In this document: piece after piece, positions 14,825 through 53,597 of the stretch
Layout: each line of letters begins with the position of its first letter
Numbering within the stretch: position 1 is the stretch's first letter
NCBI GenBank assembly: GCA_031256675.1
Contig: JAIRQC010000060.1
Coordinates: 1 to 55,079, forward strand
DNA length: 55,079 bases
Source: Rikenellaceae bacterium
GTDB taxonomy: Bacteria; Bacteroidota; Bacteroidia; Bacteroidales; Rikenellaceae
Direction: 5' to 3'
Position numbers and translations under genes: made by a program
Notes under the pieces: generated by a model
Databases searched by the model: none
Seen by the model: the letters and a program-made list of their open reading frames with translations, nothing else
What the model was told of the DNA's origin: nothing

Positions 14825-14861
14825 CAGAAATATTGTTCGGTTTCACCCGGGAAGGCTGTCA

Positions 14862-33657: not shown

Positions 33658-34953
33658 TTAGATACTGTCCGTGTTATCATTTTCTTCAACACTTTGTTCT
33701 TTGTTAAACGGCACGAACCACGATGCAAGAAAGGCGGGTATGGTGGCGATGGCTACAAATATGAAGAAATTGCGGTATCCAATCCAGTCGCTCAGGTAGC
33801 CGCTCGCCATACCAGGCAACGATACTCCGAGGTTGGCCAGGCTCGATGCGAAGGCATAATGCGCCATCCTGTGGGCGCCAGGAGCGACCTGCTGCATAAT
33901 GAAGATCATCAGCCCTACGAAACCGAATCCGTAACCGAAATATTCGAACACCACAGCCGAGCCGATCGTCCAGAACGACATCGGCTGAAAAACGGACAGC
34001 AAAAGATAGACCAGAAACGGGATATTGAAACAGCAGCAGAGCGTAAAGAGTGTCCGTCGCAGTCCCCGTGCCGAGACGAAGTGCCCTGCGAGGATCGACC
34101 CCAGAATGAACGCTCCGGTTCCGAACGTGCCGACGATGAGGCCTATATCTTCCGTCGAGAGTCCTAATCCCCCGTCGGCAACCGGCGAATTGAGGAACAG
34201 GGGCACGATCTTAATGGCGAACCCCTCGGCCAGACGATAGAACAGTATGAACAGCAGGTACCAGCCGATGTGTCTCTTTTGAAAGAATGTAGTGAAGACG
34301 TTGCCCACTGCGCGCAGCCCATCGTTGAAGTTGTTTATTCGGCTCGCGGCTTCGCCTCCTGACGGCAACATTCTGGCATGGTAAAGGCTCAGCAACAGCA
34401 TCAATCCTGCCGTGATGGCCATGATCGCCATCCAAGCCTGAGCCGGAGATACCGTATTTTTTAACATTCCTGCCAGATAGACCAGTCCGCCTGCGGCCAG
34501 CAGTTTTCCTGTGTTGTAGAAGGCTCCCTGCCATCCCGCATAACGAGCCTGGGCTTTAAGGTCGAGTTCGGTGATGTAGATGCCATCGGTGGCTATGTCG
34601 TGTGTGGAGCCACTGAAAGCGATTACAGCCATCAGCGCGACGGCCCACGGAAAGAAACCTGGCAGCGGCAACGACAAGGCGATCAGTGCAAAGCAGACGC
34701 CGGTAATCATCTGGGTGGTTACGACGAAAAACTTCTTCGTCCGGAACATCTCCATGAAAGGGCTCCACAGCGGTTTGAGCGACCACGGTAGGATGATGAG
34801 CGAAGTCCAAAAAGCGATCTGCGCGTCGGTGATCTGCATGTCGCGCAACATGAGTGCCGAAGCCTGATTGAGCATTACGAATGGCAGCCCCATTGCCATG
34901 TAAACCGTCGGCACCCATAGCAGGGGGGTAATTTTTGCATTTTTATCTTTCAT
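33658..34953 (-). CDS. AmpG-like MFS transporter
   Basis: MKDKNAKITPLLWVPTVYMAMGLPFVMLNQASALMLRDMQITDAQIAFWTSLIILPWSLKPLWSPFME...; many TM segments; ATG overlaps the upstream stop. Confidence 0.85.
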   Translation of the reverse strand: MKDKNAKITPLLWVPTVYMAMGLPFVMLNQASALMLRDMQITDAQIAFWTSLIILPWSLKPLWSPFMEMFRTKKFFVVTTQMITGVCFALIALSLPLPGFFPWAVALMAVIAFSGSTHDIATDGIYITELDLKAQARYAGWQGAFYNTGKLLAAGGLVYLAGMLKNTVSPAQAWMAIMAITAGLMLLLSLYHARMLPSGGEAASRINNFNDGLRAVGNVFTTFFQKRHIGWYLLFILFYRLAEGFAIKIVPLFLNSPVADGGLGLSTEDIGLIVGTFGTGAFILGSILAGHFVSARGLRRTLFTLCCCFNIPFLVYLLLSVFQPMSFWTIGSAVVFEYFGYGFGFVGLMIFIMQQVAPGAHRMAHYAFASSLANLGVSLPGMASGYLSDWIGYRNFFIFVAIATIPAFLASWFVPFNKEQSVEENDNTDSI

Positions 34954-36268
34954 GGCGAGCAGTCTGTTCATATTCTTTTATTGCAGTGGCGAGCATCTCC
35001 CACCATCCATTGTTGATTATATGTACTATGTCGAAGATCATCAATCCGTCCGACCGTTCGAGGTTCATTTTCACCGCGCGCGCAAATCTCGACGCATCTC
35101 CCTTGTAATCTTCGACATACAGTCCGCCCAGAAAAGGGCGTCCGCACAGCAGTTCGCGCGAGTAGTTGCATGCCCCCTCGACACAGAGGTGGTCGCCGTA
35201 AGAGGCCTTGCTGTCTGTTTCGTTGCGGTGACCTCCCGTCGAGGCACGATACTCTTTGACGGTAATATTGCGATAATAGTTGCCGTTGGTATAAACGTCG
35301 AGCAGTTCGGCATAACCGTAGTTTTTGTACTCCGGCGTAGCCCAATCAAAATGGCGCGACGGATCGTAATCGCGACTGGCCCAGTTCACTCCCGCCTCGT
35401 AGTATGACGGATACCATGCCCCTGTGTAGGCGCCGAATCGAATCGAAGGATTGGCCTTTTTCACCTCGGCGCGGGCGCGCTCGAAGAAGCGGTATATGAC
35501 CGAAGCGCGCCATTCTATCCATTTTTTGAACCACGGCCCCTCGATGCGCACGTAGCCGCCGTTGCCGTCTGCCGCCCATTCGTAAATATCTTCGGGGAAA
35601 CGTTCCAACTGCCTGCCGATATATTTCTCGAACTGCGTGCGGGAGAAGTCGGAGAAGTCGGACTGTATGTTGTCGTAGCGTGCGCGGTCAAGGATTAGGC
35701 CGTCGAATGCGAATTTGACGGCCACCTCCCTGAAAAGATCGATTTCGTGCTGCTGCACCTCCGGCAGGGCTGGATTGGCAAAGAGTACTAATTTATCCTT
35801 AATATCGAGTTGCCTGACAAGTCCTTGTTCCGGAACGTAATTTACTGCCTGCCATTCGGGATGGGACGAGTAGAGAATGCCGCGTTTCAGGAGGCCTGTC
35901 CCCTCGGCGAAAGTATTTAGCGAGGCATAGATCTCCAAGCCCTGTTCGTGAGCGCGGGCGATGAATGTATTCACGTAATCGAAATCGGGCCGACGCGCCA
36001 CCCCTTTCCATTCCGTGAGCTGCGAAGTATGTTCGCTCGGATAGACTACCTCACCGGAGGTACCTTTCACATCCAGCACAAGGGCCGTAATGCCCGCCTG
36101 CCTACACCTGTTCACATAATAGCGAATCGAATCTGAGCAGGATAACCGCTCCCAGTTGGCCGAAAGGTCGATCCACATCCATTTGGGTTTGGCACTTTTT
36201 GTCTCCGCATGCATACAGCCTGCGCCGAAGAGCAGGATGGCGGTCATAACGACAAGTATTCTTTTCAT
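34943..36268 (-). CDS. GHL10-like (family 10 glycosylhydrolase-like) protein, paralogue 1
   Basis: WMWIDLSANWERLSCSDSIRYYV...LVLDVKGTSGEVVYPS...DGLILDRARYDNIQSDFSDFSRTQFEKYIG...GAYTGAWYPSYYEAGVNWASRDYDPS. Confidence 0.8.
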   Translation of the reverse strand: MKRILVVMTAILLFGAGCMHAETKSAKPKWMWIDLSANWERLSCSDSIRYYVNRCRQAGITALVLDVKGTSGEVVYPSEHTSQLTEWKGVARRPDFDYVNTFIARAHEQGLEIYASLNTFAEGTGLLKRGILYSSHPEWQAVNYVPEQGLVRQLDIKDKLVLFANPALPEVQQHEIDLFREVAVKFAFDGLILDRARYDNIQSDFSDFSRTQFEKYIGRQLERFPEDIYEWAADGNGGYVRIEGPWFKKWIEWRASVIYRFFERARAEVKKANPSIRFGAYTGAWYPSYYEAGVNWASRDYDPSRHFDWATPEYKNYGYAELLDVYTNGNYYRNITVKEYRASTGGHRNETDSKASYGDHLCVEGACNYSRELLCGRPFLGGLYVEDYKGDASRFARAVKMNLERSDGLMIFDIVHIINNGWWEMLATAIKEYEQTARHER

Positions 36269-38109
36269 CTTATTTCATATTTACCTTCTATCGTAACTTC
36301 ATGGTCGAACGGGGCGAGCAGCGCGTCGATCAGTACGGCACACTCTCCCCTGTTCAATTCGCGCCCTGACCGCACGTCGGCCATATCGAGCGAGGCGCAT
36401 GTCAACCCTTCGCTTCTCTGCCTGACGGAGCTGTTGCACAAGGAGAGCAACGCCACGAGTTTATTCCACGTAACGTTGCCAGGCACGTTGGAAACAGCTT
36501 CAGGATAAAGTTCTCTCAGCCCTTCGGCCAGCAATGCGCATGGGAACGGCTTGTCAGCATCGAACCAGGTTTGGTTTTCCCAGCCCGCATTGGCCCCGCG
36601 TCCCTTGATTATGCCTGTTGCGCCGATGCGCTGCATGGCTTTGAAATGGGGATGAGAAGGTTCTACGTCGAGATACGGCAGCAGGTAGCCGCCCCGTTCC
36701 AGTATCTCGCGTTGCACCTCGCGCACGCACGTTCTGCTCACCGGCCTGTCATGTTGCACGGAGAGTGCAGCCATGATTCCCGCCGCTTGGCCGAGTTGCA
36801 GGACGACAGGTTGCAGCCTGGTGGAGCCGTTTACCAAATTGGTAACCGAGATCGACTTTTCGGCCACGATCAACCCTTCGCAATTTATAGGAAGCATAAC
36901 CCCCATCGGCACGCCATAGGAAGGTACCGGATGAAAATAAAGATCGGGAAGTTCGCTCCACTTCGGATAACGCATATGGTGCTGGTCGACTGGATAGTCG
37001 CCCACGGCGATGCAGGTACGGTAAAGCGGTTGTGGCTGGCAATACGGGTCGGTTATGTGGCCCAGCGTCATGCGCACTGCTCCGTGGATGCGGCGCGACT
37101 CGCGATGGTAGGGGATAAAGGGTAGCATGTCGTCCGTAGGGAATTCATCGTCCGCAAGGCCGTATGTCGAAAAGCCGAGTTCGGTCTGCATGAAGTAAAG
37201 AAAGCCAAGCGAGTGCATCTTGGCCTTTTCTGCGAGAGCCTCCCTTTCGAAGGGTGAGACATTCGTCATATCGGCGTAAAAATCATTACCTTCGATGGGC
37301 CAGTTGATCATGTACCTGCCGCCAGGCAGCCTGCCATACGTGATCATCTTCTCTCTACTCCACAAACGCCCCTTCTCTTTCGGCGCGATGCATGACGGAC
37401 TGTCGCAACAGCACAGATATAGCGAACGGTCGTAACCTTCGGGCCTATCAATAGTCATGTTTATGCCGTAATCGCGCAGTATCATCACGTATGTAAGATC
37501 TTGAATTACGGCGTTAGCCTGTTCGGAAGCTATCTCCTCGCCAGTCGCGTAGCGCGAATCCATTCCAACATCGCAGGCCACGCCCAAGGCTGCGGCCACG
37601 TCGCCGAGTTCCGTCGCGTCGATCAGCACTTTGGCCCAAACCGTTATCTCTGCGCCGTCCCGACGGAGCATAACGCGCCACTTTCCGTCTTCCCATTCTG
37701 CGTTTTTGAAAGTTGTGCGGCGCCATACGGTGAGTTGCGGGCAGGCGGCGGCGATATTGTCAAATATCGCCGCTCCTACCGACGGCTCGAACATAACGTT
37801 ACTCACCCAGCCGGTTTTAAGCGCTTCCGTGCCTCCGTAACGTGACTCGAGCGAGTCGCGAAACTCGGCCCAGAAGCCGCCGCGCAACTTGTAACAGCCG
37901 TCGGTCGCGCTTACGCCCGCCGAAGTGAGCATCCCTCCGAGCCATTCGAACTCTTCGGCGATCAGGGTTTTTGCTCCCATGCGTGCAGACTGTATGCCTG
38001 CCGCCGCTCCGCTTGTGCCGCCGCCCACGACTATCACGTCGTAGCGCTCCTCAGTCCGTGTGCAGGCCAACGCACAAAGACAGCAAAGCGCGATTAACAG
38101 CCTTTTCAC
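36265..38109 (-). CDS. FAD-dependent oxidoreductase, secreted/lipoprotein
   Basis: GTG start at 38109: MKRLLIALCCLCALACTRTEERYDVIVVGGGTSGAAAGIQSARMGAKTLIAEEFEWLGGMLTSAGVS; the longer ORF to 38397 reads antiparallel-to-none extra N-terminus inside the upstream gene. Confidence 0.85.
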   Translation of the reverse strand: MKRLLIALCCLCALACTRTEERYDVIVVGGGTSGAAAGIQSARMGAKTLIAEEFEWLGGMLTSAGVSATDGCYKLRGGFWAEFRDSLESRYGGTEALKTGWVSNVMFEPSVGAAIFDNIAAACPQLTVWRRTTFKNAEWEDGKWRVMLRRDGAEITVWAKVLIDATELGDVAAALGVACDVGMDSRYATGEEIASEQANAVIQDLTYVMILRDYGINMTIDRPEGYDRSLYLCCCDSPSCIAPKEKGRLWSREKMITYGRLPGGRYMINWPIEGNDFYADMTNVSPFEREALAEKAKMHSLGFLYFMQTELGFSTYGLADDEFPTDDMLPFIPYHRESRRIHGAVRMTLGHITDPYCQPQPLYRTCIAVGDYPVDQHHMRYPKWSELPDLYFHPVPSYGVPMGVMLPINCEGLIVAEKSISVTNLVNGSTRLQPVVLQLGQAAGIMAALSVQHDRPVSRTCVREVQREILERGGYLLPYLDVEPSHPHFKAMQRIGATGIIKGRGANAGWENQTWFDADKPFPCALLAEGLRELYPEAVSNVPGNVTWNKLVALLSLCNSSVRQRSEGLTCASLDMADVRSGRELNRGECAVLIDALLAPFDHEVTIEGKYEIR

Positions 38110-39284
38110 AGCGATGGAGATTGAACGATCTGCTCGAGCGTCTGCCAGCACTGGAACAGTCCTCGCGGAATATGGAAACATCCTTTCCATTTGCCGCCTT
38201 TCAGGCTGAGCAGCGGTTCTCCTCTTCGGTCGAGATAGCCGAACCACTCGCCGTGGAACTCGTCGCGAAAGTGTGTCCATGTGTAGTTGTGTACCTTTTC
38301 GAACCATTGCAGGCATCTCTTCGAACCAGTTAGTCGATAGCCTTTGAGCAGTGTGATGAGCGTCTCGATATGCACCCACCACAGTTTTTGATCCCACTCC
38401 AACTGTTGCGGGGGACGACCGAGGCGGTCCATGAAGTAAAATATCCCACCGAACTTTTCGTCCCAGCCATACTGCACTGTGTTCAGAGCGATCGCAACGG
38501 CCTTGTCAATCAGTTCGGGCCGCGAAAGCCTCACGCCGAGATCCATGATGAACCACATCGCCTCCAGAGCGTGTCCCGGGTTTAGCAGTCGTCCTTCGAA
38601 AGTGTCGGCAAGCCTGCCGTCAAGAGTGACGTTCTCCACTATCAATCCCAGTTCCGGACGGTAGAAGACCTCCATCACCTCGTGCAGGCACTCTTCGATC
38701 GTTCTGTCGAATAGCGCCATGTCTATCATAGGTTCGATCTCCAAAGCGAGGTTCGAGAGTATCATCGGCAGCGAGAAGCCCTTCATGGGGCGGGTTTCGG
38801 GGACAGATTTCTCCCACTGCCCTTTCGGGGCGGCCTGTTTTTCGAGAATACGCTCGAAAGTCTGCCTTGCTATCTGTCCGTACTCCGCATTCCCTGTCGC
38901 AATGCTTGCCTGTGCAAAGGCCATCGTTGCAAAAGTGTATGAGAAAATGTTGTACGGCTGTACGAGAGGCAGTCCCTCGCGCGTTACGGAGAAATACCAA
39001 TTCAGATTGCCGTCATGACAATATTTACGGAGAAATTCGGCCCCGTCCACGGCACATTCCAACCACTCGTCCCTTATGTCGAGCCGGTTGCACAGCATGG
39101 AAAACATCCACACCTGACGCGCCTGCAACCAGACGAACTTGTCGGTGTCGAACACGCTGCCGTCGCGCTCCAGACAGGTCAGGTACCCTCCATATTCCCT
39201 ATCGCGCGAGTGATTCAGCCAAAACGGAAGCACATTTTCCAGCAGTTCGCTTTTATATTGCTCTGCAAGATGCACAAAATCCAT
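38106..39284 (-). CDS. AGE-family (N-acylglucosamine 2-epimerase-like) epimerase
   Basis: MDFVHLAEQYKSELLENVLPFWLNHSRDREYGGYLTCLERDGSVFDTDKFVWLQARQVWMFSMLCN...LNPGHALEAMWF. Confidence 0.88.
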   Translation of the reverse strand: MDFVHLAEQYKSELLENVLPFWLNHSRDREYGGYLTCLERDGSVFDTDKFVWLQARQVWMFSMLCNRLDIRDEWLECAVDGAEFLRKYCHDGNLNWYFSVTREGLPLVQPYNIFSYTFATMAFAQASIATGNAEYGQIARQTFERILEKQAAPKGQWEKSVPETRPMKGFSLPMILSNLALEIEPMIDMALFDRTIEECLHEVMEVFYRPELGLIVENVTLDGRLADTFEGRLLNPGHALEAMWFIMDLGVRLSRPELIDKAVAIALNTVQYGWDEKFGGIFYFMDRLGRPPQQLEWDQKLWWVHIETLITLLKGYRLTGSKRCLQWFEKVHNYTWTHFRDEFHGEWFGYLDRRGEPLLSLKGGKWKGCFHIPRGLFQCWQTLEQIVQSPSL

Positions 39285-39285
39285 A

Positions 39286-40227
39286 TTATTTCAATTTAAG
39301 ATATTCAATATAACGATCGTACAGATGTCCCGCCTGACGGTAAGCGGACTGAGGGGACATGAAGTGCGAGAACTCGAAAGTAATGGCGTTTTCGATTCCT
39401 GCCTCGGCGGCCAACGACATCTTGAGTCGCAGTTTTTCCCACTTGATCGGCAGGAACTTGATTGGCATGTCCCTGTCGAAAGTCTCGGTATTCGTCCAGC
39501 ATTCCAGTCCGTACCTGTCGGCCAGCCGTTTGTTCACCCTCAGAAAATCGGCCAGCTCGTCGTAATCTACATGGCCATCCTGAAACGCCACTATGTCCAC
39601 CGCACCGCTGATACCTGCAAAAATAGCATCCCACTCCTTCTCGTGACTATCGAGCGTCACCGAATCCTCTCTCGCGGTAGAAGCGTCGTATTGGCTAAGG
39701 TTCTTGCGTCCGTCGATATAGGGCGAGATCATGGTGGGCAGGCCGCCCGAAGCCTCCTTGCAGTGACGCCCAAGTTCTGCGTACAGTTCAACGATCTGCC
39801 CCGTGCGGCGACTGCATTCCTGAGAAATGTACCAGCCTCCGAACGAACGGTAATGGCCGTAGCGTCTCCATGCCTCGTCGACGACCAGTTTGTTTATCTC
39901 GACCTCGGCGACATAATCTCCCATGTCCCAGTATTTTCCCGAGTCGTAGAGCCCGAACCAAAACATCATGCCCCACTTGTCGCTCAGGCGCAGGAACATG
40001 TCAACCAGATCCACCGGCGGCACGTAACATCCTTCGCGAGCAGTGAGAACCTCGCATGGAAATGTTTGCCAGCGTCGATAACCGCACCGGATAAGTATCA
40101 CGTTCTCTATGTCCGCCGCGCGCATGTAGCCGAAATCGCGATCCCACTCCTCTTCGCCCCAGTTCTGGTGGGGAATGTCGTGGCTTATCTCGTCAAGAAA
40201 AGTACCTTTGATCATCATGTTCTCCAA
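39286..40227 (-). CDS. DUF4434-like glycosidase-type protein
   Basis: MENMMIKGTFLDEISHDIPHQNWGEEEWDRDFGYMRAADIENVILIRCGY...RSFGGWYISQE...VDIVAFQDGHVDY. Confidence 0.75.
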   Translation of the reverse strand: MENMMIKGTFLDEISHDIPHQNWGEEEWDRDFGYMRAADIENVILIRCGYRRWQTFPCEVLTAREGCYVPPVDLVDMFLRLSDKWGMMFWFGLYDSGKYWDMGDYVAEVEINKLVVDEAWRRYGHYRSFGGWYISQECSRRTGQIVELYAELGRHCKEASGGLPTMISPYIDGRKNLSQYDASTAREDSVTLDSHEKEWDAIFAGISGAVDIVAFQDGHVDYDELADFLRVNKRLADRYGLECWTNTETFDRDMPIKFLPIKWEKLRLKMSLAAEAGIENAITFEFSHFMSPQSAYRQAGHLYDRYIEYLKLK

Positions 40228-41615
40228 AATATTTTTTTATTTGTAAATAAAATTGCAACGATAGCCACAATTGCCGTAACGATTGCCCCGCGCAACACTC
40301 CAAACCACGGTCCCATAGCGGCAAGGTCGACAAGCAGAGGGGCCGCCCCGACGAGCGTAAGCAGAGGCATGATAATGTAGCCCGCCGCCGTGTAGGCCAT
40401 CATCGGATTTTGCCCGCACCTGACGGTTGTCCTCATTTTCAGGCCGAATATGTCGATCATTACCGAAGCGACAACTATCGTAAACGAGGCCAATCCGGAT
40501 GTTATAAAAAAGTAGCCGATCGTGGCAGGATCCTTTTTGATCCCGCCCTCGAACGGCTCAAACGCCAGACCGAGCAGAAGCCAGAAAAAGCCCCACGTCA
40601 GCAGCCGGTAAAACAGTCTGCCATCCGCCGAACGGGCTCGACGGGCAATGAGCAGAGCCGTCGCACCAAGGAACAGTGTGCCAATAACATTAATAGTCGT
40701 GTGGCGAGTAAATAGCCCCCACATGTTGAGAATTATGACCGTCAAGGCCAGCAGTGTGATCGTGAAGACTTTGCTGCGATCGTCCGATTTGTCGTCCTCC
40801 CGCCCGTCGCACATCCTGCGCCGGACGAGATCGCCGACGATGCTACCAGGCAGAACAATGCAGAGGTATTTCAGAAATTCTGCCCTGTAAAGCCATGGAA
40901 CGGGAGAGAAATTCCATACCGCCGCCGTCCACGACCCTTCGACCGAAGAGGATATTTTCAACGCGACAATTATGGCCACGACGGCGAGCCGTGCCGACAG
41001 GCAGTCGCGAGTGAACCACCATGCGAGCGTGCCGAACAATACCATGTTGGCAAGAACAAGTATGATTATGTCGCTGCGCCGAATACTTACATTCATTCCA
41101 TGCACATAATGTCCGAACAACAGCACGGCTACAATTCCCGCTACCCCGCAGATGTTTAGCAAATTGTTTGCCCGCCGTCCGAGCGACGGCAGGCGGACGA
41201 ACATGCAGAAAAACACTCCCCATACGCAGAGCGATACGACCGACTTAACGCATGGGCTCCATTGCTCAGGCAGCGCGTGAGAGCGAGTATTGGCCAACGC
41301 AACGGCGAACAGCACCAGTAACGCCCACCGCTTTACGCTTTGTGTGGCGATCTGCTTCAATCCTGCGCCGTGCTCGATCCTGCCACGCAGGGACAGAGGA
41401 AAAGCTGCGCCCATAGAAAAAAGGAAGAACGGGAAGACCAGATCGACCCATGTAATGCCCGCAACCGTCGGGTCGAATTTGAAACCAGGCGGCGGCGTCT
41501 GTGCATGAAACATCCATGCAGGCAACTCAGCGCTCCATATCATCTGTCCCGAAAGCACCATGCCGAGAATGGCAAGGCCACGCAAGATGTCTATCGAATA
41601 TGCTCTCTCTTTCAT
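40215..41615 (-). CDS. DUF5009 / heparan-alpha-glucosaminide N-acetyltransferase-like membrane protein
   Basis: MKERAYSIDILRGLAILGMVLSGQMIWSAELPAWMFHAQTPPPGFKFDPTVAGITWVDLVFPFFLFSMGAAFPLSL; ATGA overlap with the upstream gene. Confidence 0.85.
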   Translation of the reverse strand: MKERAYSIDILRGLAILGMVLSGQMIWSAELPAWMFHAQTPPPGFKFDPTVAGITWVDLVFPFFLFSMGAAFPLSLRGRIEHGAGLKQIATQSVKRWALLVLFAVALANTRSHALPEQWSPCVKSVVSLCVWGVFFCMFVRLPSLGRRANNLLNICGVAGIVAVLLFGHYVHGMNVSIRRSDIIILVLANMVLFGTLAWWFTRDCLSARLAVVAIIVALKISSSVEGSWTAAVWNFSPVPWLYRAEFLKYLCIVLPGSIVGDLVRRRMCDGREDDKSDDRSKVFTITLLALTVIILNMWGLFTRHTTINVIGTLFLGATALLIARRARSADGRLFYRLLTWGFFWLLLGLAFEPFEGGIKKDPATIGYFFITSGLASFTIVVASVMIDIFGLKMRTTVRCGQNPMMAYTAAGYIIMPLLTLVGAAPLLVDLAAMGPWFGVLRGAIVTAIVAIVAILFTNKKIFWRT

Positions 41616-42994
41616 TGCATCGCCAATCTTATACCTTCTTTGGCGTACTGCCATTTAGCCCCACCGTTCTGTTTGAGATGGATCATGTCGAAGAGGAAAT
41701 ATCCACCGCAAGCATCCATGCAGGCCTTGACCGAATTGACGATCGACTGATTCTGCTGCGCCTCTGTGAAACCAGTCGGAACGCTCCAATTGCCGACGTC
41801 CGGGCCTCCGACCAGAATGGGAACGACGCCCGCCGTGTATTGCATTGCTTTGGCACAAAATCCCTGCATGGTCCATTCGGTCGTGCCGTACACCTTATCG
41901 GCAGCGGCGTATGCCCCGATGAGCATCTGGTCCATCTGGTCGGCGTAGCCGAATGTCCTGTAATTGTCCGTAACCCAGTCTGTGACGCTCTTCGTATCGA
42001 ACGACGGGGCGGCCCAGTTAACCCCCACGCCGTAGTAGGAGGAGTACCAGCCTCCGACGTATACTCCGAATTTTATATCCGGATTCTGCGCCTTGACCAC
42101 TGCGCGGGCCTTGACCATGAAGTCGTGGATAACTTTGGCACGGAACTCGAACCATTTAGCCATCAGCGCCGGACGCTGCCCCGCTACCGGCAGCGAACCC
42201 GTTCCCGCAGGCAATGCGTCGCCCGGCCAGTCAGTCAGGGTATAACCGATATAGGCCTCGAATTTTTGACGTGTCGTTGTCGAAAAGTCGCTTTTCATCT
42301 CATCGAACCGCCCGCGGTCGAGGATTATGCCATCCACGTTGTATTTGGCCAGATCGGAGAGCAGTCCACAGAGATAATCCTGCACCTCGTCGTGCGCCGG
42401 ATTGAAGAATTTGACGCCGCTGCCCATGTCAAGCGTATTTAATATTCCGTCCGAGGTGTTGAGATATGTGGCCCATTCGCGTTTGGTGTTGTCGCGAAAC
42501 AAAACTCCCGTCGAGCCGAGTGCATTGGTATTGCCGCCGACCATGGTGTTGAACGCCGCATGTATTCTCAGTCCGAGCGAATGGCCTGTGTCGATGAAGG
42601 CTTGCAAATAGTCCCACGTTGCCGTGCGAGTGATTTTTACGAAGCCCTGCCCTGTTACCCACGCCCCCAGCCACTCGACTTGCGGGCAGAGTGGTGTGTC
42701 GAACAGCACATCGCCGTTGGTCGGACGCACGTCGACCACAATATCCGTAAAACCTGCATCTTTGGCCAGCGTCAGGTCGCGTTCGATACAGGCTTTGCTG
42801 TCTGCGAAGTCTGGGAAGTTGGCCGCCGCATCCACCCAGAGATAGCGCGGCTTCACCGTTGAATCGGGCTCATCGGGCTTCTCTTCATGCCACTCCCATT
42901 CGGGTGTAGCATGCTTTTCACCGCAGGAAACTGCTGTCAACCCTGCGGTGAGAGCAATCGCACAGATCTCGAAACGAAAAAACTTCTTATTCAT
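41612..42994 (-). CDS. GHL10-like lipoprotein, paralogue 2
   Basis: Signal peptide ending in Cys (TAVSCGEK); PRYLWVDAAANFPDFADSKACIERDL...DGIILDRGRFDEMKSDFSTTTRQKFEAYIG...GVYVGGWYSSYYGVGVNWAAPSFD. Confidence 0.8.
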   Translation of the reverse strand: MNKKFFRFEICAIALTAGLTAVSCGEKHATPEWEWHEEKPDEPDSTVKPRYLWVDAAANFPDFADSKACIERDLTLAKDAGFTDIVVDVRPTNGDVLFDTPLCPQVEWLGAWVTGQGFVKITRTATWDYLQAFIDTGHSLGLRIHAAFNTMVGGNTNALGSTGVLFRDNTKREWATYLNTSDGILNTLDMGSGVKFFNPAHDEVQDYLCGLLSDLAKYNVDGIILDRGRFDEMKSDFSTTTRQKFEAYIGYTLTDWPGDALPAGTGSLPVAGQRPALMAKWFEFRAKVIHDFMVKARAVVKAQNPDIKFGVYVGGWYSSYYGVGVNWAAPSFDTKSVTDWVTDNYRTFGYADQMDQMLIGAYAAADKVYGTTEWTMQGFCAKAMQYTAGVVPILVGGPDVGNWSVPTGFTEAQQNQSIVNSVKACMDACGGYFLFDMIHLKQNGGAKWQYAKEGIRLAMQ

Positions 42995-44770: not shown

Positions 44771-44791
44771 GGCAGTTTACTTGTTTGCGGG

Positions 44792-46474
44792 TTATAGCCA
44801 TTCGGAAAACTGACTGACAGCCTTGTTGTTGTCAAGCTCCGTCACCGGCAGTGGAATACGGTAAAGTTTCTGATCGAAGATACGGTCGCGTAGATCGCAA
44901 TCTACATATTCATAGCGGAACGCTCCGCCGCTCTCCTGCGTGATCTTGAAACCGTGCACGCGGATGCCCGTATAGGCCGTATGGGCAAGTTCCCAGCGGC
45001 GCATGTCCCAATATAGCTGTCCCTCAAAAGCGAGTTCGATCTTGCGTTCGGTGCGGATCGCCTCCGTCAGCGCCGTGCCGCTCTTGTCTGTATAGGGCAA
45101 CGACACACGGGCGCGGACTGCCCTCACATCGGCATTGGCTTGCGTGGCGTTATTGAGTCTGTCGCACGCCTCGGCACGGTTCAGGTAGACCTCCGGCAGG
45201 CGAATGGCGATCCACGGTTGGGTGCATTTCAGGCCATCACCGAGGTTATGGGCAGGGTCAAGCAGTTTGCATATGAAATATCCTGTACAGGTCGATCCCG
45301 TAGGGAACGAGGCGTCGAGAACAAAAGGCGCCCAGCCCTCGTTCCCTCCCTGATATGTCTGAATCGTGCGGCCTTTCCAGCTTGCGCCGTTGTATAACAC
45401 CGTCGCGCCGAAGCGGGGTTCCAGCAGACTGTATGGCGGATTTGCCATTGAACCTCCCGCTGCGTGCCACTGGTTCCAGTCGGGACGTCCCGTTCCGTCG
45501 GCTTTCTCATACAGCTCCACCAACTCCTGTGTCGGCGAGCCATAGCCAAGCGCGCGGGCGTCGTCGCCTTTTGGGGCGAATGAGAAGTCGAAACTGTGGT
45601 TTGGGCCGGTGGTTGCGGTGACGTATGCGTACCACAGCACCGATTCGCTGCTCGTTGTGGAGAAAATATTACGGTAGTCGGCGGCCGTGGTTACAGGCGC
45701 AATCAGGGCGTAGCCTGCATGTGCTGCACCGAGTTCGATCACCGAGTCGGCGGCGACTTTGGCCACTTCCCACCGTTTGGCGTAGAGCATGGCGCGCGAA
45801 AGCAGCGCGTAGGCGGCACCCTTGGTCACGCGCCCCGCATCTGCGGCATTGTATTTCCACGGAAGATTGGCCGCTGCAGCTTTCAGATCGTTCTCTACCA
45901 TGTTCCAACCGCTATCTTCATCGCTGAGCGGAGAATTGCTCTGATACTTGGCCATATCCTCGTCGTAGAGGATAACATTTTTGTGACGTTTGATAAGTTC
46001 AAAATAGAGCATTCCCCTGAAAAACAATGCTTCCGACCGCAGGCGTGCATTTATGGCGGCATCCAGCGCCGAATACTCCTTCTGCGTGTAGAGGAATTCG
46101 TTCACCTGAGCGATACGTTTGTAGATATTCGTCCACAATCCCAACTGATAGGAGGCGTTGTCGGCATTCACCCCGTTGTACAATGCAAGGTTGTTGGGTT
46201 GGCCCGCATTGGGAAGCACCTGCATCGAGTTGAACTTCATTACGTCGGTCAGGCCGTCGGTCAAACCAATGTTCGTGCCCGCGTTGCCGTACTGCCCGAA
46301 GTAGTCGAGGGTCGTGTAGAGACTGTTGGCATACTGGGTGGCGGCGGCGAGGTCTTTCCATGCGGCTTTGGCGCTCGGTTTGTCGTGGGGCATGGTATCG
46401 AGAAAGTCCTTGCATCCGGTGAGAGCCAACATAATGACGGCAATGGCTGTCGGATATATCCTTGATGTTTTCAT
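44792..46474 (-). CDS. SusD-like RagB outer-membrane lipoprotein
   Basis: MKTSRIYPTAIAVIMLALTGCKDFLDTMPHDKPSAKAAWKDLAAATQYANSLYTTL...RLPEVYLNRAEACDRLN. Confidence 0.93.
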   Translation of the reverse strand: MKTSRIYPTAIAVIMLALTGCKDFLDTMPHDKPSAKAAWKDLAAATQYANSLYTTLDYFGQYGNAGTNIGLTDGLTDVMKFNSMQVLPNAGQPNNLALYNGVNADNASYQLGLWTNIYKRIAQVNEFLYTQKEYSALDAAINARLRSEALFFRGMLYFELIKRHKNVILYDEDMAKYQSNSPLSDEDSGWNMVENDLKAAAANLPWKYNAADAGRVTKGAAYALLSRAMLYAKRWEVAKVAADSVIELGAAHAGYALIAPVTTAADYRNIFSTTSSESVLWYAYVTATTGPNHSFDFSFAPKGDDARALGYGSPTQELVELYEKADGTGRPDWNQWHAAGGSMANPPYSLLEPRFGATVLYNGASWKGRTIQTYQGGNEGWAPFVLDASFPTGSTCTGYFICKLLDPAHNLGDGLKCTQPWIAIRLPEVYLNRAEACDRLNNATQANADVRAVRARVSLPYTDKSGTALTEAIRTERKIELAFEGQLYWDMRRWELAHTAYTGIRVHGFKITQESGGAFRYEYVDCDLRDRIFDQKLYRIPLPVTELDNNKAVSQFSEWL

Positions 46475-46486
46475 CGCTTTCCTAAA

Positions 46487-49400
46487 TTATAAGGTTATGG
46501 TCAATCCGCCCATTATTACCCTCTGTTGCGGATAGTAGCCCTGAGTTACGCCCGGACGTTCGGGATCGACGCCTTTCGGCAGTCCCGACACTGTGAACAG
46601 GTTGCTGCCTTCGACGTAGATGCGCACGCTGCCAACACCAATTTTTGTCATCCACTCTTTTGGGAACGTGTAGCCCAGTTGAGCCGATTTCAGGCGGATA
46701 TACTTACCGTCGCGCGCCCAGAACGTAGAGGCGTAGCCGTTGTAGTTCGAACCGTCGGGCGTGGCGATCGACAGGCGCGGGAATTCGCCTCCTGTATTGT
46801 CAGTTCTCCACGAGCCTTCGACCAGATAGCGCGGGGCATTGGCGCTGCCCTTGAACGGACGGGTGAATACCGAGGTGTCATCGTTGCCGTTGGCGTATGT
46901 ACCGGTCAAATATACGTCGAATATGGCCGCGCCGGTAAAGGTCAGGTCGACGTCGAAGCCCTTCCAGCTCGCCCACACTCCGAAGCCGCCCATCAGTTTG
47001 GGCATCGTCGGACGTCCTGCCACTGCGCGGTCGGCCTCACTGATAATGCCGTCGCCATTGAGGTCTTTGTACTTGACGTCGCCCGGACGCGGGGTCTTGC
47101 CTGCGAAATATGGCGAATGTTGCACATCGTACTCGTCGCGGAACAGGCCGTCGGCGATCATGATGCGGCGCGTATTGACCGCCTTGCCCGTATTCTGCTG
47201 ATAAGCATAGGTGTTGGGGGAGTCGGCGTATTGCAGCCAGCGGTTGTAAGCGTAGCTCATGTTGAAGCGCGCCCCGTAGGAAAACTCCTTGCCGATGGTG
47301 TTACGATGGCTGAGCGTTGTTTCGAAGCCCTTGATGTCGCGCTTGTTGGCGTTCATGTATGTCGGATAGTATCCGCCCATTGAGGGCGGGTAGCCTGCGG
47401 CGGCGGAGATAATGTCGTAATTGTAGTTGTAGAATGCATCGAACTCGACCCCCAACAAGCCCTTCCACAGAGTGGCGTCGAAGCCGATATTGTAGCTGTC
47501 GGTGGTGTTCCACGTAAGTTCCATGTTGGGCTCCGTTCCGACCTGGAGGCCTGTCTGGGACGTGCCATCCGTAACCAGAGGATTGGCGGTACTGTTCAGC
47601 AAAGCGAGATAGGCATACGATACCGGCACGTAGTCGTTGGCCGTCCGCCCTGCCGAAGCCCTGATTTTAAGGTTATCCATCACGCTTTTAGCCTTTTCGA
47701 AGAAACTCGCTTCGGAAATCCTCCATCCCAGCGAAACAGCCGGAGCGAAGAGCCAGCGCTTGCCCTTGACATTGCCGCTGAAACTGTCCGAACCGTCATA
47801 GCGTCCGCTGAATTCCAGCAGATAGCGCGACATGTAGCTGTAATTGCCTCTCCACACAAGGCTTGCCTTGCGGCGCAGCGAACTGTTGCCTCCCACGACT
47901 GAACGGTCGATAGCCCCTGAAGCGACGTCCAACTCCACCAGGTCGGGGGTCATGAAGCCCTCTTGCCCAGCCCTGATGTTGCTGCGGTTGCGTGACTGCG
48001 TTTCCAGCAATGCCATAGCCGAGTAATCGTGTTTGCCCATGCTGCCGATATAGTTGAGGCTGGTTTGCGACACGGTGAAACTTTCCTTCGAGGCGCTCTC
48101 CGTATCCCTAATTACGGTGTTGCCACGCACATCAACGGTTTCACTGAAAGTGCCGAGGCGCAGGTTTTCAAGCATCACCCGATAGGGTGTGCTGACCGAC
48201 TTGCCGAAAGTTGTCGAGAGGTCGTAAGAGCCGACGAACTTCGCGCTCAGTCCCTTGACCCACGGCACATCCCATTTCAGCGAAAGGTTCGACTGCACGG
48301 AGTAAGTCTGGTTGACGCTGTGCCCTGACTGTTCGACGGCGGCGATGGGACTGTATCTTTGTCCGCTCGACAGACCTACACTTGCGACAGGCAATCCGTT
48401 GAACGTTTTCGGCAAATATGGGTGGGCATAAATTGCCTGTTCGGCGATGCTCATCCACGGCATGTCAGAGGCGGCAATGCTGGTGTCGGAGGCGCCTCCC
48501 GCGCTGAAGCCGGGAGAGGTGCGCCTGCCTGCCTGTCCTGCCACGCCCAGCGAGAAGGTCAGATTCTTGCCCAGCCTGGTTTCGAGGTTTGTACGCAGGT
48601 TATAGCGGTCGTAGTTGAAATTTTTGATGTTGCCCGTCTGATCCATGTAGCCCAGCGATGCGAAATAGCTGCTGTTGTCGCTGCCGCCTGCGACGGAGAC
48701 GCTGTGTTGCTGGTTGCGTCCGACGCCGAACGTTTCGCCTATCCAGTCCGTATTGCCCCAACCGTCCGAGTCGTCGTTGTTGAGCATCTTGTCGACCATC
48801 GCTTTGGTGAACGGATACTGTGCGGCCGTGGGGATGTTGCCCAGATACTGTTGGTCGAGTTCCCATGCCTTGTTATACCAGTAGGCATAGCCCGGCCCGT
48901 CGAGAAACTCGGGAAAACTGGCATTGACGGAAACACCGCAGGCACCCCTGTAATTGATTTTCGGGGCCGATTTGGCCCCCTTCTTGGTGGTGATGATCAC
49001 CACGCCGTTCGCCCCGCCCAAACCGTAGATCGAGGTTGCCGAAGCATCTTTGAGTATCGAGACGGTCTCGATCTCGCTTGGGTCAATGTCGTTGATTGGG
49101 CGATAGATACCATCGACAATGTAGACGGGTGTGGAGGTCGAACCGCGAATACTGAGCGTGGCCTGATCGGCGCCGGGCTGTCCGCTCATCTGCGAAGAAC
49201 TGAGGCCGGTTATACGTCCGCCAAGCACGCTGGAGATGTTCGATGAGGGACTTTTGAGCAGTTCGGCTCCGCTGATCTGTGAGATAGAAGCCGTCAGCGA
49301 CGATCTCTTCTGTGTTCCGTATCCCACCACGACCACCTCCTCCACCTCGGCTTCATTCTCTTTGAGCACCACGTCGATGGTAGCCTGTCCCGTGTATGTA

Positions 49401-49681
49401 GCTTCATGGGAGGGCAGACCGATAAACGAAAAAACGAGTGCGTCGCCCAACTGTACAGCGATGGAATATTCGCCGTTCTGAGAGGTTGTCGCGCCGCCGC
49501 CGCCTTTCACGGTGACGGCTGCTCCGGCAAGCGGAACTCCAGCCCCGTCGGTTACTTTGCCGCGCAGGGTGTTTTGGGCCAATGCGCCCACCGTGCCCGC
49601 AAGAAACATCGACAGTGCGAGCATTCCAGCCCGCAACATCGACATTCTCCTCCGGATTTTTGCAGAGTTGTAAATTTTCAT
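46487..49681 (-). CDS. SusC/RagA-like TonB-dependent transporter
   Basis: LRGKVTDGAGVPLAGAAVTVKGGGGATTSQNGEYSI...EVVVVGYGTQKRSSLTASISQISGAELLKS...SIRGSTSTPVYIVDGIYRPINDIDPSEIETVSILKDASATSIYGLGGANGVVIITTKKG. Confidence 0.97.
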   Translation of the reverse strand: MKIYNSAKIRRRMSMLRAGMLALSMFLAGTVGALAQNTLRGKVTDGAGVPLAGAAVTVKGGGGATTSQNGEYSIAVQLGDALVFSFIGLPSHEATYTGQATIDVVLKENEAEVEEVVVVGYGTQKRSSLTASISQISGAELLKSPSSNISSVLGGRITGLSSSQMSGQPGADQATLSIRGSTSTPVYIVDGIYRPINDIDPSEIETVSILKDASATSIYGLGGANGVVIITTKKGAKSAPKINYRGACGVSVNASFPEFLDGPGYAYWYNKAWELDQQYLGNIPTAAQYPFTKAMVDKMLNNDDSDGWGNTDWIGETFGVGRNQQHSVSVAGGSDNSSYFASLGYMDQTGNIKNFNYDRYNLRTNLETRLGKNLTFSLGVAGQAGRRTSPGFSAGGASDTSIAASDMPWMSIAEQAIYAHPYLPKTFNGLPVASVGLSSGQRYSPIAAVEQSGHSVNQTYSVQSNLSLKWDVPWVKGLSAKFVGSYDLSTTFGKSVSTPYRVMLENLRLGTFSETVDVRGNTVIRDTESASKESFTVSQTSLNYIGSMGKHDYSAMALLETQSRNRSNIRAGQEGFMTPDLVELDVASGAIDRSVVGGNSSLRRKASLVWRGNYSYMSRYLLEFSGRYDGSDSFSGNVKGKRWLFAPAVSLGWRISEASFFEKAKSVMDNLKIRASAGRTANDYVPVSYAYLALLNSTANPLVTDGTSQTGLQVGTEPNMELTWNTTDSYNIGFDATLWKGLLGVEFDAFYNYNYDIISAAAGYPPSMGGYYPTYMNANKRDIKGFETTLSHRNTIGKEFSYGARFNMSYAYNRWLQYADSPNTYAYQQNTGKAVNTRRIMIADGLFRDEYDVQHSPYFAGKTPRPGDVKYKDLNGDGIISEADRAVAGRPTMPKLMGGFGVWASWKGFDVDLTFTGAAIFDVYLTGTYANGNDDTSVFTRPFKGSANAPRYLVEGSWRTDNTGGEFPRLSIATPDGSNYNGYASTFWARDGKYIRLKSAQLGYTFPKEWMTKIGVGSVRIYVEGSNLFTVSGLPKGVDPERPGVTQGYYPQQRVIMGGLTITL

Positions 49682-49767
49682 GGCAAACAGGGTTATTCGT
49701 TAAAATTAATCATATTGTATAGACGTTGCGCGCAAATATTACACGGCATGGTTTCAGATATTTATAG

Positions 49768-51084
49768 TTATTTAATCGGGTTCTTGATCGCCTCGGCCAC
49801 GATCTTCCACCAACCGCGCGAGACAATGTGCGAAATGTCGAAAACCATCACTCCGTCGCAGGCTGACATAACCATGCGTATCGCCAGGGAAAACTCTTCG
49901 GGATGGTTGGCGTACTGCTCTACGTAGATGCTGCCGATAAGCGGCGCGGCACCGCGGGTCAACTCCCGTGCATGTTTTGCCCCCCCCTCGACCGTATACC
50001 AGTCGTCCTCGGCTTCCGACATTGCCGCTTCTGTGCGTTTTGCGACCGCCGCGCGACGACGTTTGCCGTCGTCCGTCGTAATGTCTGTGTAGTACAGTCC
50101 TGTCATATAAATGTCGAACAGTTCGGCACAGCCCCATTTTCGGTATTCCGACGTGGCCCAGTCGTAATCGCGCGACGGGTCGTAATCGCGGCTGGCCCAG
50201 TTCACTCCGACCTCGTAATAGGTCGGGTACCATGCTCCCGTATAGGTTCCGAATTCTACCTCCGGAGCGGCCTGCCTTATCGTCCGGCGCGCCTCTTCGA
50301 AAAAAGTATATATAACCCCGGCGCGCCACTCGACCCACTTCTTGAAAAGCGGCCCGCGCCGCCATCTCATTTTGTCGCTATCTTCCTCCCAATAGAGTAT
50401 ATCTTCGGGAAAATTACCGACCGTGATTCCTGCGTAACGTTCGAACTCGCGGCGAGAGAGGTCGGAGAAGTCGCCGGTTATGCCATCGTAACGCACGCGA
50501 TCGAGGATGATGCCGTCGAGATGCGGGTAGCGTCCGGCAAATTCGGCAAGCACGTCCAACTGGTAGCGACGCACCTCCGGATCGGCAGGGTTGAGCATCC
50601 CGTTGTAAGTTGTTTTGATCTTCTCGATCGGCGTCATCACGCCATTATTATATATGAGCGACTGCCACTGCGGATATTGTTTATAAATAATGCCTCGCCC
50701 AAAGAAGTTGTGACCACCACAGAAAATGTTGAGCGATGCGCTGATCCGCATACCTATGCGGTGACACTCATTTATCATGATGGCCGTCAGGTCATAATCC
50801 TGATCGCGGTACCATCCTTCCCATTCTCCCATGAATGGAGCTATGCGGCTGTGCCAGCATACCTCGCCCATGATCGACTTCACATCAAGCACAACGTCGG
50901 TAAATCCTGTATCTTTGGCCAGTTGCAGGTAATGACGCACCGAGTCGGGCGAGGAGAGCCGCCGGTAATTGGCCTCACAATCAAACCAGAGGCAGGCCTG
51001 TTTCTGATTTACCGCAGAATCACGCGCTGCGAACGATGCACCGCAGAACGACAGAAACATTATGACAGGCAGGGCATTTCGCAT
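49768..51084 (-). CDS. GHL10-like secreted protein, paralogue 3
   Basis: MRNALPVIMFLSFCGASFAARDSAVNQKQACLWFDCEANYRRLSSPDSVRHYLQL...DGIILDRVRYDGITGDFSDLSRREFERYAG...GTYTGAWYPTYYEVGVNWASRDYDPSRDYDWA. Confidence 0.8.
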   Translation of the reverse strand: MRNALPVIMFLSFCGASFAARDSAVNQKQACLWFDCEANYRRLSSPDSVRHYLQLAKDTGFTDVVLDVKSIMGEVCWHSRIAPFMGEWEGWYRDQDYDLTAIMINECHRIGMRISASLNIFCGGHNFFGRGIIYKQYPQWQSLIYNNGVMTPIEKIKTTYNGMLNPADPEVRRYQLDVLAEFAGRYPHLDGIILDRVRYDGITGDFSDLSRREFERYAGITVGNFPEDILYWEEDSDKMRWRRGPLFKKWVEWRAGVIYTFFEEARRTIRQAAPEVEFGTYTGAWYPTYYEVGVNWASRDYDPSRDYDWATSEYRKWGCAELFDIYMTGLYYTDITTDDGKRRRAAVAKRTEAAMSEAEDDWYTVEGGAKHARELTRGAAPLIGSIYVEQYANHPEEFSLAIRMVMSACDGVMVFDISHIVSRGWWKIVAEAIKNPIK

Positions 51085-51114
51085 AGCGGTATTCGGTTGA
51101 TGGATATTCGACAG

Positions 51115-51122
51115 CAAATATA
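51115..51122 (-). promoter_or_regulatory. -7 box (TATATTTG on minus) upstream of GHL10-like paralogue 3
   Basis: caaatata on the plus strand, ~30 bp upstream of ATG 51084. Confidence 0.45.
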
Positions 51123-51168
51123 GAAAAATATTTTCTATTGCGCGACTTGAAAATAAAATAATTTATTT

Positions 51169-52224
51169 CTACGGAACGCATGAGATCACCACTGCCGTAG
51201 GAACCTTGCGTTCGACTATTGTCACGCCGCTACCCGTATCGCTCGGGCGGTTAAGGACGCTCCCTTCGCATCCGACAATGGTCGATGAGCCTCCACCGTC
51301 GAGATTGATCGCATCGACAACACCTTTCGAGATGAGTTTACTGGCAAGCTCGTCGAGTGTAAAGCCCGACGAACCGTTCATGTTGCGCCCGTCGCAGACT
51401 ATCAGCACAATCTTGTCATCAGATGTCGCTCCAATCGCCGTGCGCGGCTGGCGCGATGTTCCGGCGATGCCGCCGCCGTCGAAAACCTCTTTCCAGTAGC
51501 TCTCTACAGCTACGTTTATTCCGCCCCGCACCAGCGACGGGCCGCCTCCGACAGCTTCGCGCGGACTCCACAGTGCAGCTCCGACGGTCGCCACGGTGGG
51601 CGGCGAGGCCATGAAGGTTTTGGTGCGTTCGTCGTTATCCAGTGGCGATAGGAAACCGTATGGTTTGCTGCCGTCGGAGGTCATGCAATATATCCACTGT
51701 GCCTCGAAAGCCCCCGAAGCCATTTGTCCGAAAGCGGAACGCACAGGATAGACCGTCACATTGTTGTCGGATGCATCCTTGCGCGTAAGAGACAGTATAT
51801 TGATGGCTTTTAGAACGTTGCTCGTTATGAGCAGGCTTTGCGAAGCGCCGCCGGAGAAGTAGCCGCCGTTGACCGTTATGAACGGCATGCCTTTGCCCTC
51901 CGAAGCAAACTCGGCATGAATCGCCGAGGGCTCTTTTGCCGGAGAGACATATACGGCGTTGAATCTCAGTTTGGGATTGGCGTGCAGATCGGCCACGGCG
52001 ACATAGCCTTTGCAAACGCTTCCATTTCCCAGATCGTCCTCGAACGGCGTTACCGTGAGCCCGTCGGGATAGCCGGTCGGTTCAGGTTGAGGTTGAGGTT
52101 GCTCTGCGTCAGGGTCAGGGAATTCGTAATGCGGCTTTTCCCCGTTGCCGCATGAAGCGATGAGAAGAAGCAGCGTTACTGCTGCCAGAAATGTTGTAAA
52201 GGAATGCTGTTTCATAGTCGACAA
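51169..52224 (-). CDS. Phosphodiester glycosidase (NAGPA-like) lipoprotein
   Basis: Lipobox LLIASCGNG; FITVNGGYFSGGASQSLLI...AVGGGPSLVRGG...RQPRTAIGATSDDKIVLIVCDGRN...VDAINLDGGGSSTIV. Confidence 0.85.
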   Translation of the reverse strand: MSTMKQHSFTTFLAAVTLLLLIASCGNGEKPHYEFPDPDAEQPQPQPEPTGYPDGLTVTPFEDDLGNGSVCKGYVAVADLHANPKLRFNAVYVSPAKEPSAIHAEFASEGKGMPFITVNGGYFSGGASQSLLITSNVLKAINILSLTRKDASDNNVTVYPVRSAFGQMASGAFEAQWIYCMTSDGSKPYGFLSPLDNDERTKTFMASPPTVATVGAALWSPREAVGGGPSLVRGGINVAVESYWKEVFDGGGIAGTSRQPRTAIGATSDDKIVLIVCDGRNMNGSSGFTLDELASKLISKGVVDAINLDGGGSSTIVGCEGSVLNRPSDTGSGVTIVERKVPTAVVISCVP

Positions 52225-52340
52225 GTTTTTTGTGCGATTTTATTTTGTACTATTGCCAGCAAAGATAATTATTTTTATAATAAACAACGTTGATTGCGAA
52301 AAATATATTTATGAATATAGAAAAACTATAATGAGGGTTT

Positions 52341-52369
52341 ATTTGTTGCAGCAAATTTTCGTATCTTTG
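52341..52369 (+). promoter_or_regulatory. ROK gene promoter (TTTG ... TATCTTTG) overlapping a near-palindrome ATTTGTTGCAGCAAAT
   Basis: TTTG 52342-52345, TATCTTTG 52362-52369, ATG at 52389; near-palindrome 52341-52356. Confidence 0.6.
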
Positions 52370-52388
52370 ACACAAATATATCTCCACC

Positions 52389-53597
52389 ATGAACAACTCA
52401 TTCCTGCAACAGGCCAGCGAAGGTAACAGGAGCGCGCTCCTGAAAAAAGAGATCATTCGTCAATGTATCACGGGTGGCTATTATACGATTCCGGAACTGA
52501 GTCGCGAAATGAATATCAGCGTGCCCACCGTAACCAAACTCATCGGAGAATTGAAAGACGAGGGGTTTGTCTACGACTTCGGCAAGCATGGAGCCAACGG
52601 CGGGCGCAAACCAAGCATTTACGGGCTCAATCCCGATGCGGGCTATTTCGTCGGCGTCGACCTGAAAAATGACCGTATGGATATGGGGGTGATCGATTTC
52701 AAGGGAAATTTTACCGAATATCAGACTTTCCGCAACTTCTTGCTCGAGAATTCGCAACAGTCTTTCGACGAACTATGCTCCATAATCAACTCCTTTCTGG
52801 ATGGTCTGCCTGTTTCGCGACAAAAGATACTCGCCGTGGGGATTAATCTTTCGGGGCGCGTGAATTCCGAAAGCGGATACAGTTACAGTTTTTATTTCGT
52901 CGAGGAGAAGCCCATCGCCATGTTGCTCGAAGAGAAGCTCGGCTGCAACGTGTACATAGAAAACGATTCTCGCGCCATGGCTTACGGCGAATATATGATG
53001 GGTGCGGCACATAACGAACGCGATATGCTCTTTGTCAATGCAAGTTGGGGATTGGGTATCGGAATCGTGATCGACGGCAGGCTGTGTTATGGCAAATCGG
53101 GCTTTTCGGGTGAATTCGGCCATTTCCCGTTTTTCGAGAACGAGATTATCTGTCGTTGCGGCAAACGGGGGTGCCTGGAAACCGGAGTTTCGGGTTCGGC
53201 CGTCCATCGCATGTTTCTCGAAAAACTTGGCGAGGGTCGCGCTTCGATGCTGTCTGGCAGATACAAAAAAGGCGAACCGATCACTCTGGACGACATCATG
53301 CTGGCCGTAACGAAAGAGGATGTACTGGCCATAGAGATTACCGAAGAGGTTGGCAATCTTATGGGACGAGCCATATCAGGACTGGTCAACCTGTTCAACC
53401 CCGAGCTTATAGTCATTGGCGGCACGCTGGCCACGGCGCGCGACTACCTGATGCTGCCCATCAAGAGCGCCATAAATAAACACTCTCTGCTGCTCGTGAG
53501 CAAAGACACCACAATCAAATTCTCGAAACTGGGCGAAAAGGCCGGCGTGGCAGGAGCCTGTATGCTTTCGCGCGGCAAGCTGCTCAGGCTGCTTTAA
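52389..53597 (+). CDS. ROK family transcriptional regulator (NagC/XylR-like)
   Basis: N-terminal HTH TIPELSREMNISVPTVTKLIGELKDEGFV; ROK domain VGVDLKNDRMDMGVIDFKG..., CRCGKRGCLETGVSGSAV. Confidence 0.93.
   Translation: MNNSFLQQASEGNRSALLKKEIIRQCITGGYYTIPELSREMNISVPTVTKLIGELKDEGFVYDFGKHGANGGRKPSIYGLNPDAGYFVGVDLKNDRMDMGVIDFKGNFTEYQTFRNFLLENSQQSFDELCSIINSFLDGLPVSRQKILAVGINLSGRVNSESGYSYSFYFVEEKPIAMLLEEKLGCNVYIENDSRAMAYGEYMMGAAHNERDMLFVNASWGLGIGIVIDGRLCYGKSGFSGEFGHFPFFENEIICRCGKRGCLETGVSGSAVHRMFLEKLGEGRASMLSGRYKKGEPITLDDIMLAVTKEDVLAIEITEEVGNLMGRAISGLVNLFNPELIVIGGTLATARDYLMLPIKSAINKHSLLLVSKDTTIKFSKLGEKAGVAGACMLSRGKLLRLL

Follow-up and report, generated by a model that had tools for sequence, protein, structure and literature searches.

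A Rikenellaceae SusCD locus with a divergent ROK regulator, probably serving the use of an N-acetylated amino-sugar glycan

The DNA analysed here (the window; 55,079 nucleotides, contig JAIRQC010000060.1, positions 1 to 55,079) derives from a Rikenellaceae bacterium (assembly GCA_031256675.1; 2.38 Mb, 140 contigs, 82% complete), referred to below as the host, and carries a block of 12 genes with a divergently oriented ROK regulator gene. This locus probably represents a SusCD-type polysaccharide utilization locus (PUL) for an N-acetylated amino-sugar glycan, the cytosolic end of the pathway being predicted to run via N-acetylmannosamine (ManNAc) and N-acetylglucosamine (GlcNAc). The SusC- and SusD-encoding genes are adjacent (12 bp apart) and form a PUL pair, bearing out the proposal of a SusCD glycan-utilisation locus made in an earlier sequence-only reading of this DNA. 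The encoded N-acylglucosamine 2-epimerase (AGE) was assigned to the NanE-II type by its match to the NF052547 equivalog profile (684.6 bits, cut-off 600), and its nearest solved structures are the N-acetylglucosamine 2-epimerases 2gz6 and 6f04 (about 500 bits). Furthermore, many of the best 80 DUF4434 loci across Bacteroidota show this set of genes side by side, indicative of an association beyond chance.

Gene content and organisation of the locus

Profile searches against Pfam and NCBIfam, which covered all 13 genes (i.e. the block and the ROK gene), upheld each of the gene identities previously proposed, as well as the arrangement in one tight minus-strand block with a divergent ROK gene. 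The 12 minus-strand genes run from 52224 down to 33658, with gaps between neighbours of -43 to +86 bp, indicative of an operon-like arrangement. The features of the locus are as follows:

52389..53597, plus strand: ROK regulator of the NagC/NanR type with an N-terminal helix-turn-helix (HTH), divergent from the 12-gene block
52225..52388: divergent promoter/operator region between the ROK and NAGPA genes
51169..52224, minus strand: NAGPA-like phosphodiester glycosidase, lipoprotein signal with lipobox (PF09992, 7.6e-30)
49768..51117, minus strand: GHL10/DUF4985 putative glycosidase a, exported
46487..49681, minus strand: SusC TonB-dependent transporter with Plug and CarboxypepD_reg domains
44792..46474, minus strand: SusD lipoprotein, lipobox
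43049..44770, minus strand: DUF5018 lipoprotein, lipobox (PF16410, 8.4e-91)
41612..42994, minus strand: GHL10/DUF4985 putative glycosidase b, lipoprotein (lipobox)
40215..41654, minus strand: DUF5009, HGSNAT-like putative membrane acetyltransferase (PF16401, 4.5e-64, full-length match)
39286..40227, minus strand: DUF4434 putative cytosolic glycosidase, BT_0435 orthologue (PF14488, 2.8e-74)
38106..39284, minus strand: AGE, cytosolic (NF052547)
36265..38109, minus strand: flavin adenine dinucleotide (FAD)-dependent oxidoreductase, exported, lipoprotein-like (PF12831, 5.7e-86)
34943..36268, minus strand: GHL10/DUF4985 putative glycosidase c, exported
33658..34971, minus strand: major facilitator superfamily (MFS) inner-membrane permease, AmpG-related, below AmpG cut-offs

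The start of the FAD oxidoreductase gene was corrected from 38397 in the open reading frame list to a GTG at 38109, which overlaps the AGE stop and begins a lipoprotein-like signal, VKRLLIALCCLCALAC. No signal peptide was seen in AGE or DUF4434, and DUF5018 is presumed, from its gene position, to be a surface glycan-binding protein.

Pfam detected no glycoside hydrolase (GH), polysaccharide lyase or sulfatase family in the block (CAZy itself was not searched), the only GH-like families being GHL10/DUF4985, DUF4434 and NAGPA. Neither a hybrid two-component system (HTCS) nor an extracytoplasmic function (ECF) sigma factor partner was found in the block by Pfam, so that both absences reported earlier were confirmed, and the regulator gene beside the PUL is that of the divergent ROK protein. 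A lack of a Pfam STN domain in SusC agrees with the missing ECF/anti-sigma pair.

Distribution and conserved neighbourhood

Comparisons were made with the best 80 DUF4434 loci, with a subset of 55 loci longer than 19 kb and, for NanL, with 84 loci. At least 582 DUF4434 relatives were identified in named genomes, and 16 of 297 sampled Bacteroidota genomes gave a strong DUF4434 match; the closest relatives, among the matches listed, are from Alistipes assemblies, and many relatives are environmental. The view of the system as unusual and uncharacterised stands in so far as no paper was found that names a substrate for this gene set or for its Bacteroides thetaiotaomicron counterpart, the gene set itself being widespread.

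Most of the best 80 loci retain AGE together with varying mixtures of the other genes. DUF4434 and AGE occur together in 43 of the 55 long loci, among which the FAD oxidoreductase (32), GDSL (30), GHL10/DUF4985 (29), DUF5009 (25), SusC (25), DUF5018 (22), ROK (18), a calcineurin-type phosphoesterase (15) and NAGPA (3) were also counted. The order GHL10-SusC-SusD-DUF5018-GHL10-DUF4434-AGE-FAD is kept in L006-L014, within contig reach, and in L015 and L016 divergent MFS and ROK genes lie beside DUF4434-AGE-SusC-SusD-DUF5018-NAGPA-GHL10. Relatives add GH20, GH92, GH97, GH31, CE2, GDSL and calcineurin phosphoesterase genes.

In eight loci (L006, at 12130-15357, and L008-L014), the calcineurin-type phosphoesterase and the FAD oxidoreductase form a single in-frame fusion, so that a common substrate for both is probable; in L004 and L005 they are encoded by adjacent, separate genes. 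The phosphoesterase is missing from the Rikenellaceae operon, where it was lost or never present. These observations bear on the possibility that the substrate is a capsular or secreted phosphoglycan (i.e. an N-acetylhexosamine-1-phosphate polymer) and not a wall polymer. Such a substrate would be consistent with the NAGPA gene of the block, with the conservation and fusion of the phosphoesterase in close relatives, and with the esterases, but it is rendered doubtful by the missing phosphoesterase in the Rikenellaceae operon and by the rarity of NAGPA in the wider set.

Inner-membrane permeases

One of four unrelated permease families is encoded in 45 of the 55 long loci, with a single overlap: SSF in 29, a sugar-porter MFS in eight, MFS14 in five and an MFS of the Rikenellaceae block type in four. 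Four unrelated inner-membrane permeases substitute for one another across these loci, suggesting that import is a required step that can be filled by different proteins. The Rikenellaceae permease had been described as AmpG-like, which holds for its MFS membership and AmpG relatedness, but it scored 143 bits against an NCBIfam AmpG cut-off of 350, and its assignment as an AmpG muropeptide permease was rejected on this score and on the position of its paralogue. This host paralogue (62%) lies among GH92, GH20 and GH92 genes (L122, G000:C133, approximately 4620-12336), representing an N-glycan-like neighbourhood.

Sialic acid and GlcNAc pathways

The ROK regulator BT0433 of B. thetaiotaomicron was predicted in 2013 to be NanR, controlling sialic acid/GlcNAc genes (PMC3878776), and an AGE-type NanE-II marks the Bacteroidota N-acetylneuraminic acid pathway (PMC5583593). 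Both would fit a sialic acid system, in which ROK is NanR, AGE is NanE-II, sialylated glycans are taken up and the lyase is encoded elsewhere. However, the sole DHDPS-family protein of the host is dapA (285 bits, cut-off 206), and neither a NanL-type lyase nor a sialidase of BNR_2, the only sialidase family tested, was found in this 82% complete genome. Similarly, a member of the same family, G004, which is 99% complete and carries a ROK-AGE-GHL10-FAD-phosphoesterase locus, encodes one DHDPS protein and lacks NanL and BNR_2 sialidase, and NanL-like proteins of relatives gave no match in the 84 loci. A sialic acid assignment is disfavoured by these results and is considered improbable.

NagB is present in both the host and G004, and NagA (TIGR00221) was above its cut-off in neither. 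In the host, nagB is adjoined by a gene for a PIG-L/NagB-like two-domain protein (the two genes lying at L132:3402-5390 and 5490-6293; G000:C51), a possible alternative GlcNAc-6-phosphate deacetylase.

The ROK regulator and its promoter region

The ROK protein combines a HTH_24 domain with a ROK domain (PF00480, 8e-55), and its best NCBIfam match was NagC (178 bits, below cut-off). Orthologues (51-70%) were identified in G004, G018, G044 and G055. Among family members with such an orthologue, the ROK-AGE pair is kept, while SusCD and other genes vary, with GH97 accompanying the pair in G004 and, in G044, which belongs to the same order, GH31; moreover, 21 of 21 ROK-bearing DUF4434 loci also contain AGE. 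Since the pair is constant while SusCD changes, ROK most likely senses the amino sugar rather than the polymer. A ROK-type sensing mode had been put forward for the locus; in view of the earlier prediction for BT0433, the novelty of such control is not supported.

The divergent region contains TATCTTTG -7-like boxes in both directions (52362-52369, plus; 52260-52267, minus) and palindromes around 52341-52356 and 52286-52293. A search of 14 regions for a ROK operator common to them yielded no gapped palindrome that outscored shuffles by a clear margin. In five relatives (L021, L015, L016, L023 and L114), a AAAATATTTT-type palindrome is located just upstream of a TAnnTTTG box at the operon promoter and represents a candidate ROK operator; with a matrix derived from these sites, no site in the Rikenellaceae region beat shuffles.

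Predicted enzymes and the nature of the glycan

The DUF4434 protein matched the BT_0435 structure 4H41 with 448 bits and 60% identity. Its predicted model (predicted local distance difference test, pLDDT, of 89) is nearest, after 4H41, to Cwp19 and a GH164 beta-mannosidase; these matches place it broadly in clan A and leave its specificity undefined. Two long DUF4434 proteins (L115:16812-18251 and L116:17016-18422; ~24% identity), with a signal-like N-terminus and an extra N-terminal domain, are encoded in ROK-AGE loci with different SusCD pairs.

The GHL10 model, that of glycosidase a (pLDDT 88.8), had Cwp19 as its best PDB match, followed by PgaB, a beta-1,6-GlcNAc hydrolase. Cwp19 and DigH share their fold and family with the block GHL10s, DigH presumably being a GHL10 protein, consistent with the match obtained in the Escherichia coli control. 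Cwp19 is a lytic transglycosylase (PMC6016235), and DigH of E. coli degrades denuded peptidoglycan strands (PMC12288456). The block GHL10s differ from both in belonging to a DUF4985-type subfamily, and no literature was found tying GHL10 to polysaccharide utilization.

NAGPA matched NAGPA structures (phmmer), with the invariant R261 and D309-GGGS (i.e. the Arg and LDGGGS motif) retained in the alignment and a best stretch spanning positions 60-168 of 169 of the PF09992 profile. The DUF5009 gene is the sole copy in the host genome, and DUF5009 clusters with HGSNAT (PMC12423673), the block protein having a putative acetyltransferase role as in the HGSNAT/DUF5009 TmAT acetyltransferases. This clustering, along with a GH89 gene (BT_0438) in the same B. 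thetaiotaomicron chromosomal region, would suit host-type alpha-GlcNAc/glucosamine glycans (heparosan/heparan-like, or mucin alpha-GlcNAc caps), from which NAGPA/GH89-like enzymes would remove terminal alpha-glucosamine acetylated by DUF5009. Yet such a substrate appears unlikely, as the Rikenellaceae block encodes no GH89, glycosaminoglycan lyase, GH88 or sulfatase, many relatives are environmental, and AGE would be left unexplained.

In relatives, the additional esterases (GDSL, CE2) and the calcineurin phosphoesterases fit O-acetyl and phosphate substituents. Taken with DUF5009, they suggest that the glycan carries N-acetyl or free amino groups as well as O-acetyl groups and phosphate. Features of this type occur in teichoic-acid linkage units (ManNAc-GlcNAc-1-phosphate) and ManNAc wall polymers. 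The favoured, though tentative, candidate substrate is a bacterial wall glycan containing ManNAc and phosphodiesters, for example the linkage unit of a teichoic acid or a secondary polymer of the wall, and there is a modest chance that the PUL is dedicated to the Gram-positive wall linkage region, i.e. ManNAc-GlcNAc-1-phosphate on peptidoglycan, or to ManNAc secondary wall polymers. NAGPA would then cleave the sugar-phosphate bond, the phosphoesterase/FAD enzyme and esterases would remove substituents, DUF5009 would re-acetylate glucosamine, and cytosolic DUF4434 and AGE would process ManNAc disaccharides.

Several observations weigh against the proposed amino-sugar PUL and its putative wall-glycan substrate. 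NAGPA was found in only seven of the best 80 loci, and GH97 or GH31 in two related loci, as well as GH92 and GH20 in some neighbours, indicate that the wider family has more than one substrate. The proposed catalytic Asp196 of Cwp19, the role of which in Cwp19 itself is conjectural (PMC5765458), is replaced by Arg in this GHL10 subfamily (FDD aligning with LDR), so that Cwp19 activity is not transferable to these proteins, and DogH, a GHL10 protein, is reported to use starch (PMC9967864). MurQ was not above cut-off in the host or G004, NamZ was absent from the host, and no N-acetylmuramic acid-specific or peptide-handling gene was seen in the loci; the first 25 of 96 Pfam families, from 73 scanned neighbour proteins, included no peptidoglycan-peptide family. 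Absences from the 82% complete host are, taken alone, weak.

The lack of MurQ above cut-off and of Asp196 equally argues against peptidoglycan proper, on which the GHL10s would be lytic transglycosylases while muropeptide import would fall to the MFS as an AmpG permease. The GHL10 match to Cwp19 and the weak AmpG score of the MFS point in that direction, but this score lies far under the cut-offs and the paralogue in the same genome sits beside GH20/GH92, making peptidoglycan an improbable substrate.

For an N-acetylated amino-sugar glycan, we infer the following compartments, reaction order, enzyme specificities (DUF4434 and GHL10), substrate and inducer. At the surface, the lipoproteins DUF5018, SusD, NAGPA and GHL10b would bind and trim the polymer, after which SusC would import the trimmed glycan. 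In the periplasm, exported GHL10a and GHL10c and the FAD enzyme would act, DUF5009 would re-N-acetylate glucosamine from cytosolic acetyl-CoA, and the MFS would move a small product into the cytosol. There, DUF4434 would cleave this product and AGE would convert ManNAc into GlcNAc, followed by NagB, with ROK, as a NagC/NanR-type repressor, releasing the operon upon sensing the amino sugar.

Comparison with known systems and significance

A counterpart locus in B. thetaiotaomicron is already known, and its ROK control (NanR BT0433) already predicted, so that the gene set has a described relative, one to which the literature gives no substrate. The BT0433-BT0454 region, compared from published listings and not from DNA, likewise encodes a DUF4434 protein (BT_0435, 60% identity, 4H41) and a ROK regulator (BT0433), and the listing for BT0446-BT0454, a stretch with the BT0449-BT0453 operon, includes DUF5009, two 'family 10 glycosylhydrolase' genes, a calcineurin phosphoesterase and SusCD. 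Its genes are spread over several operons, with GH89 and a sugar-porter MFS, whereas the Rikenellaceae locus gathers its 12 genes into a single block that includes three GHL10s, NAGPA and a different MFS but no phosphoesterase. Bacteroidota nan operons (NanL, NanE-II, NanT, NanOU and NanR) have AGE, an MFS, SusCD and an adjoining regulator in common with the locus (PMC3969230, PMC5583593) but NanL and a BNR_2 sialidase were found in neither the host nor G004. New here are the exclusion test based on lyase and sialidase, the permease replacement, the phosphoesterase-FAD fusion and a testable substrate class.

An AGE/ROK module without a detected sialic acid lyase or BNR_2 sialidase speaks against labelling the system simply as 'NanR, sialic acid' and restricts the candidate substrates to glycans yielding ManNAc/GlcNAc. 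Candidate activities are thereby offered for five families (DUF4434, GHL10/DUF4985, DUF5009, DUF5018 and exported FAD oxidoreductases), and the same parts occur in the model gut species B. thetaiotaomicron, represented by a strain with genetics. If the locus is indeed a PUL for the wall linkage region, it would represent a wall-feeding system across Bacteroidota, gut species included.

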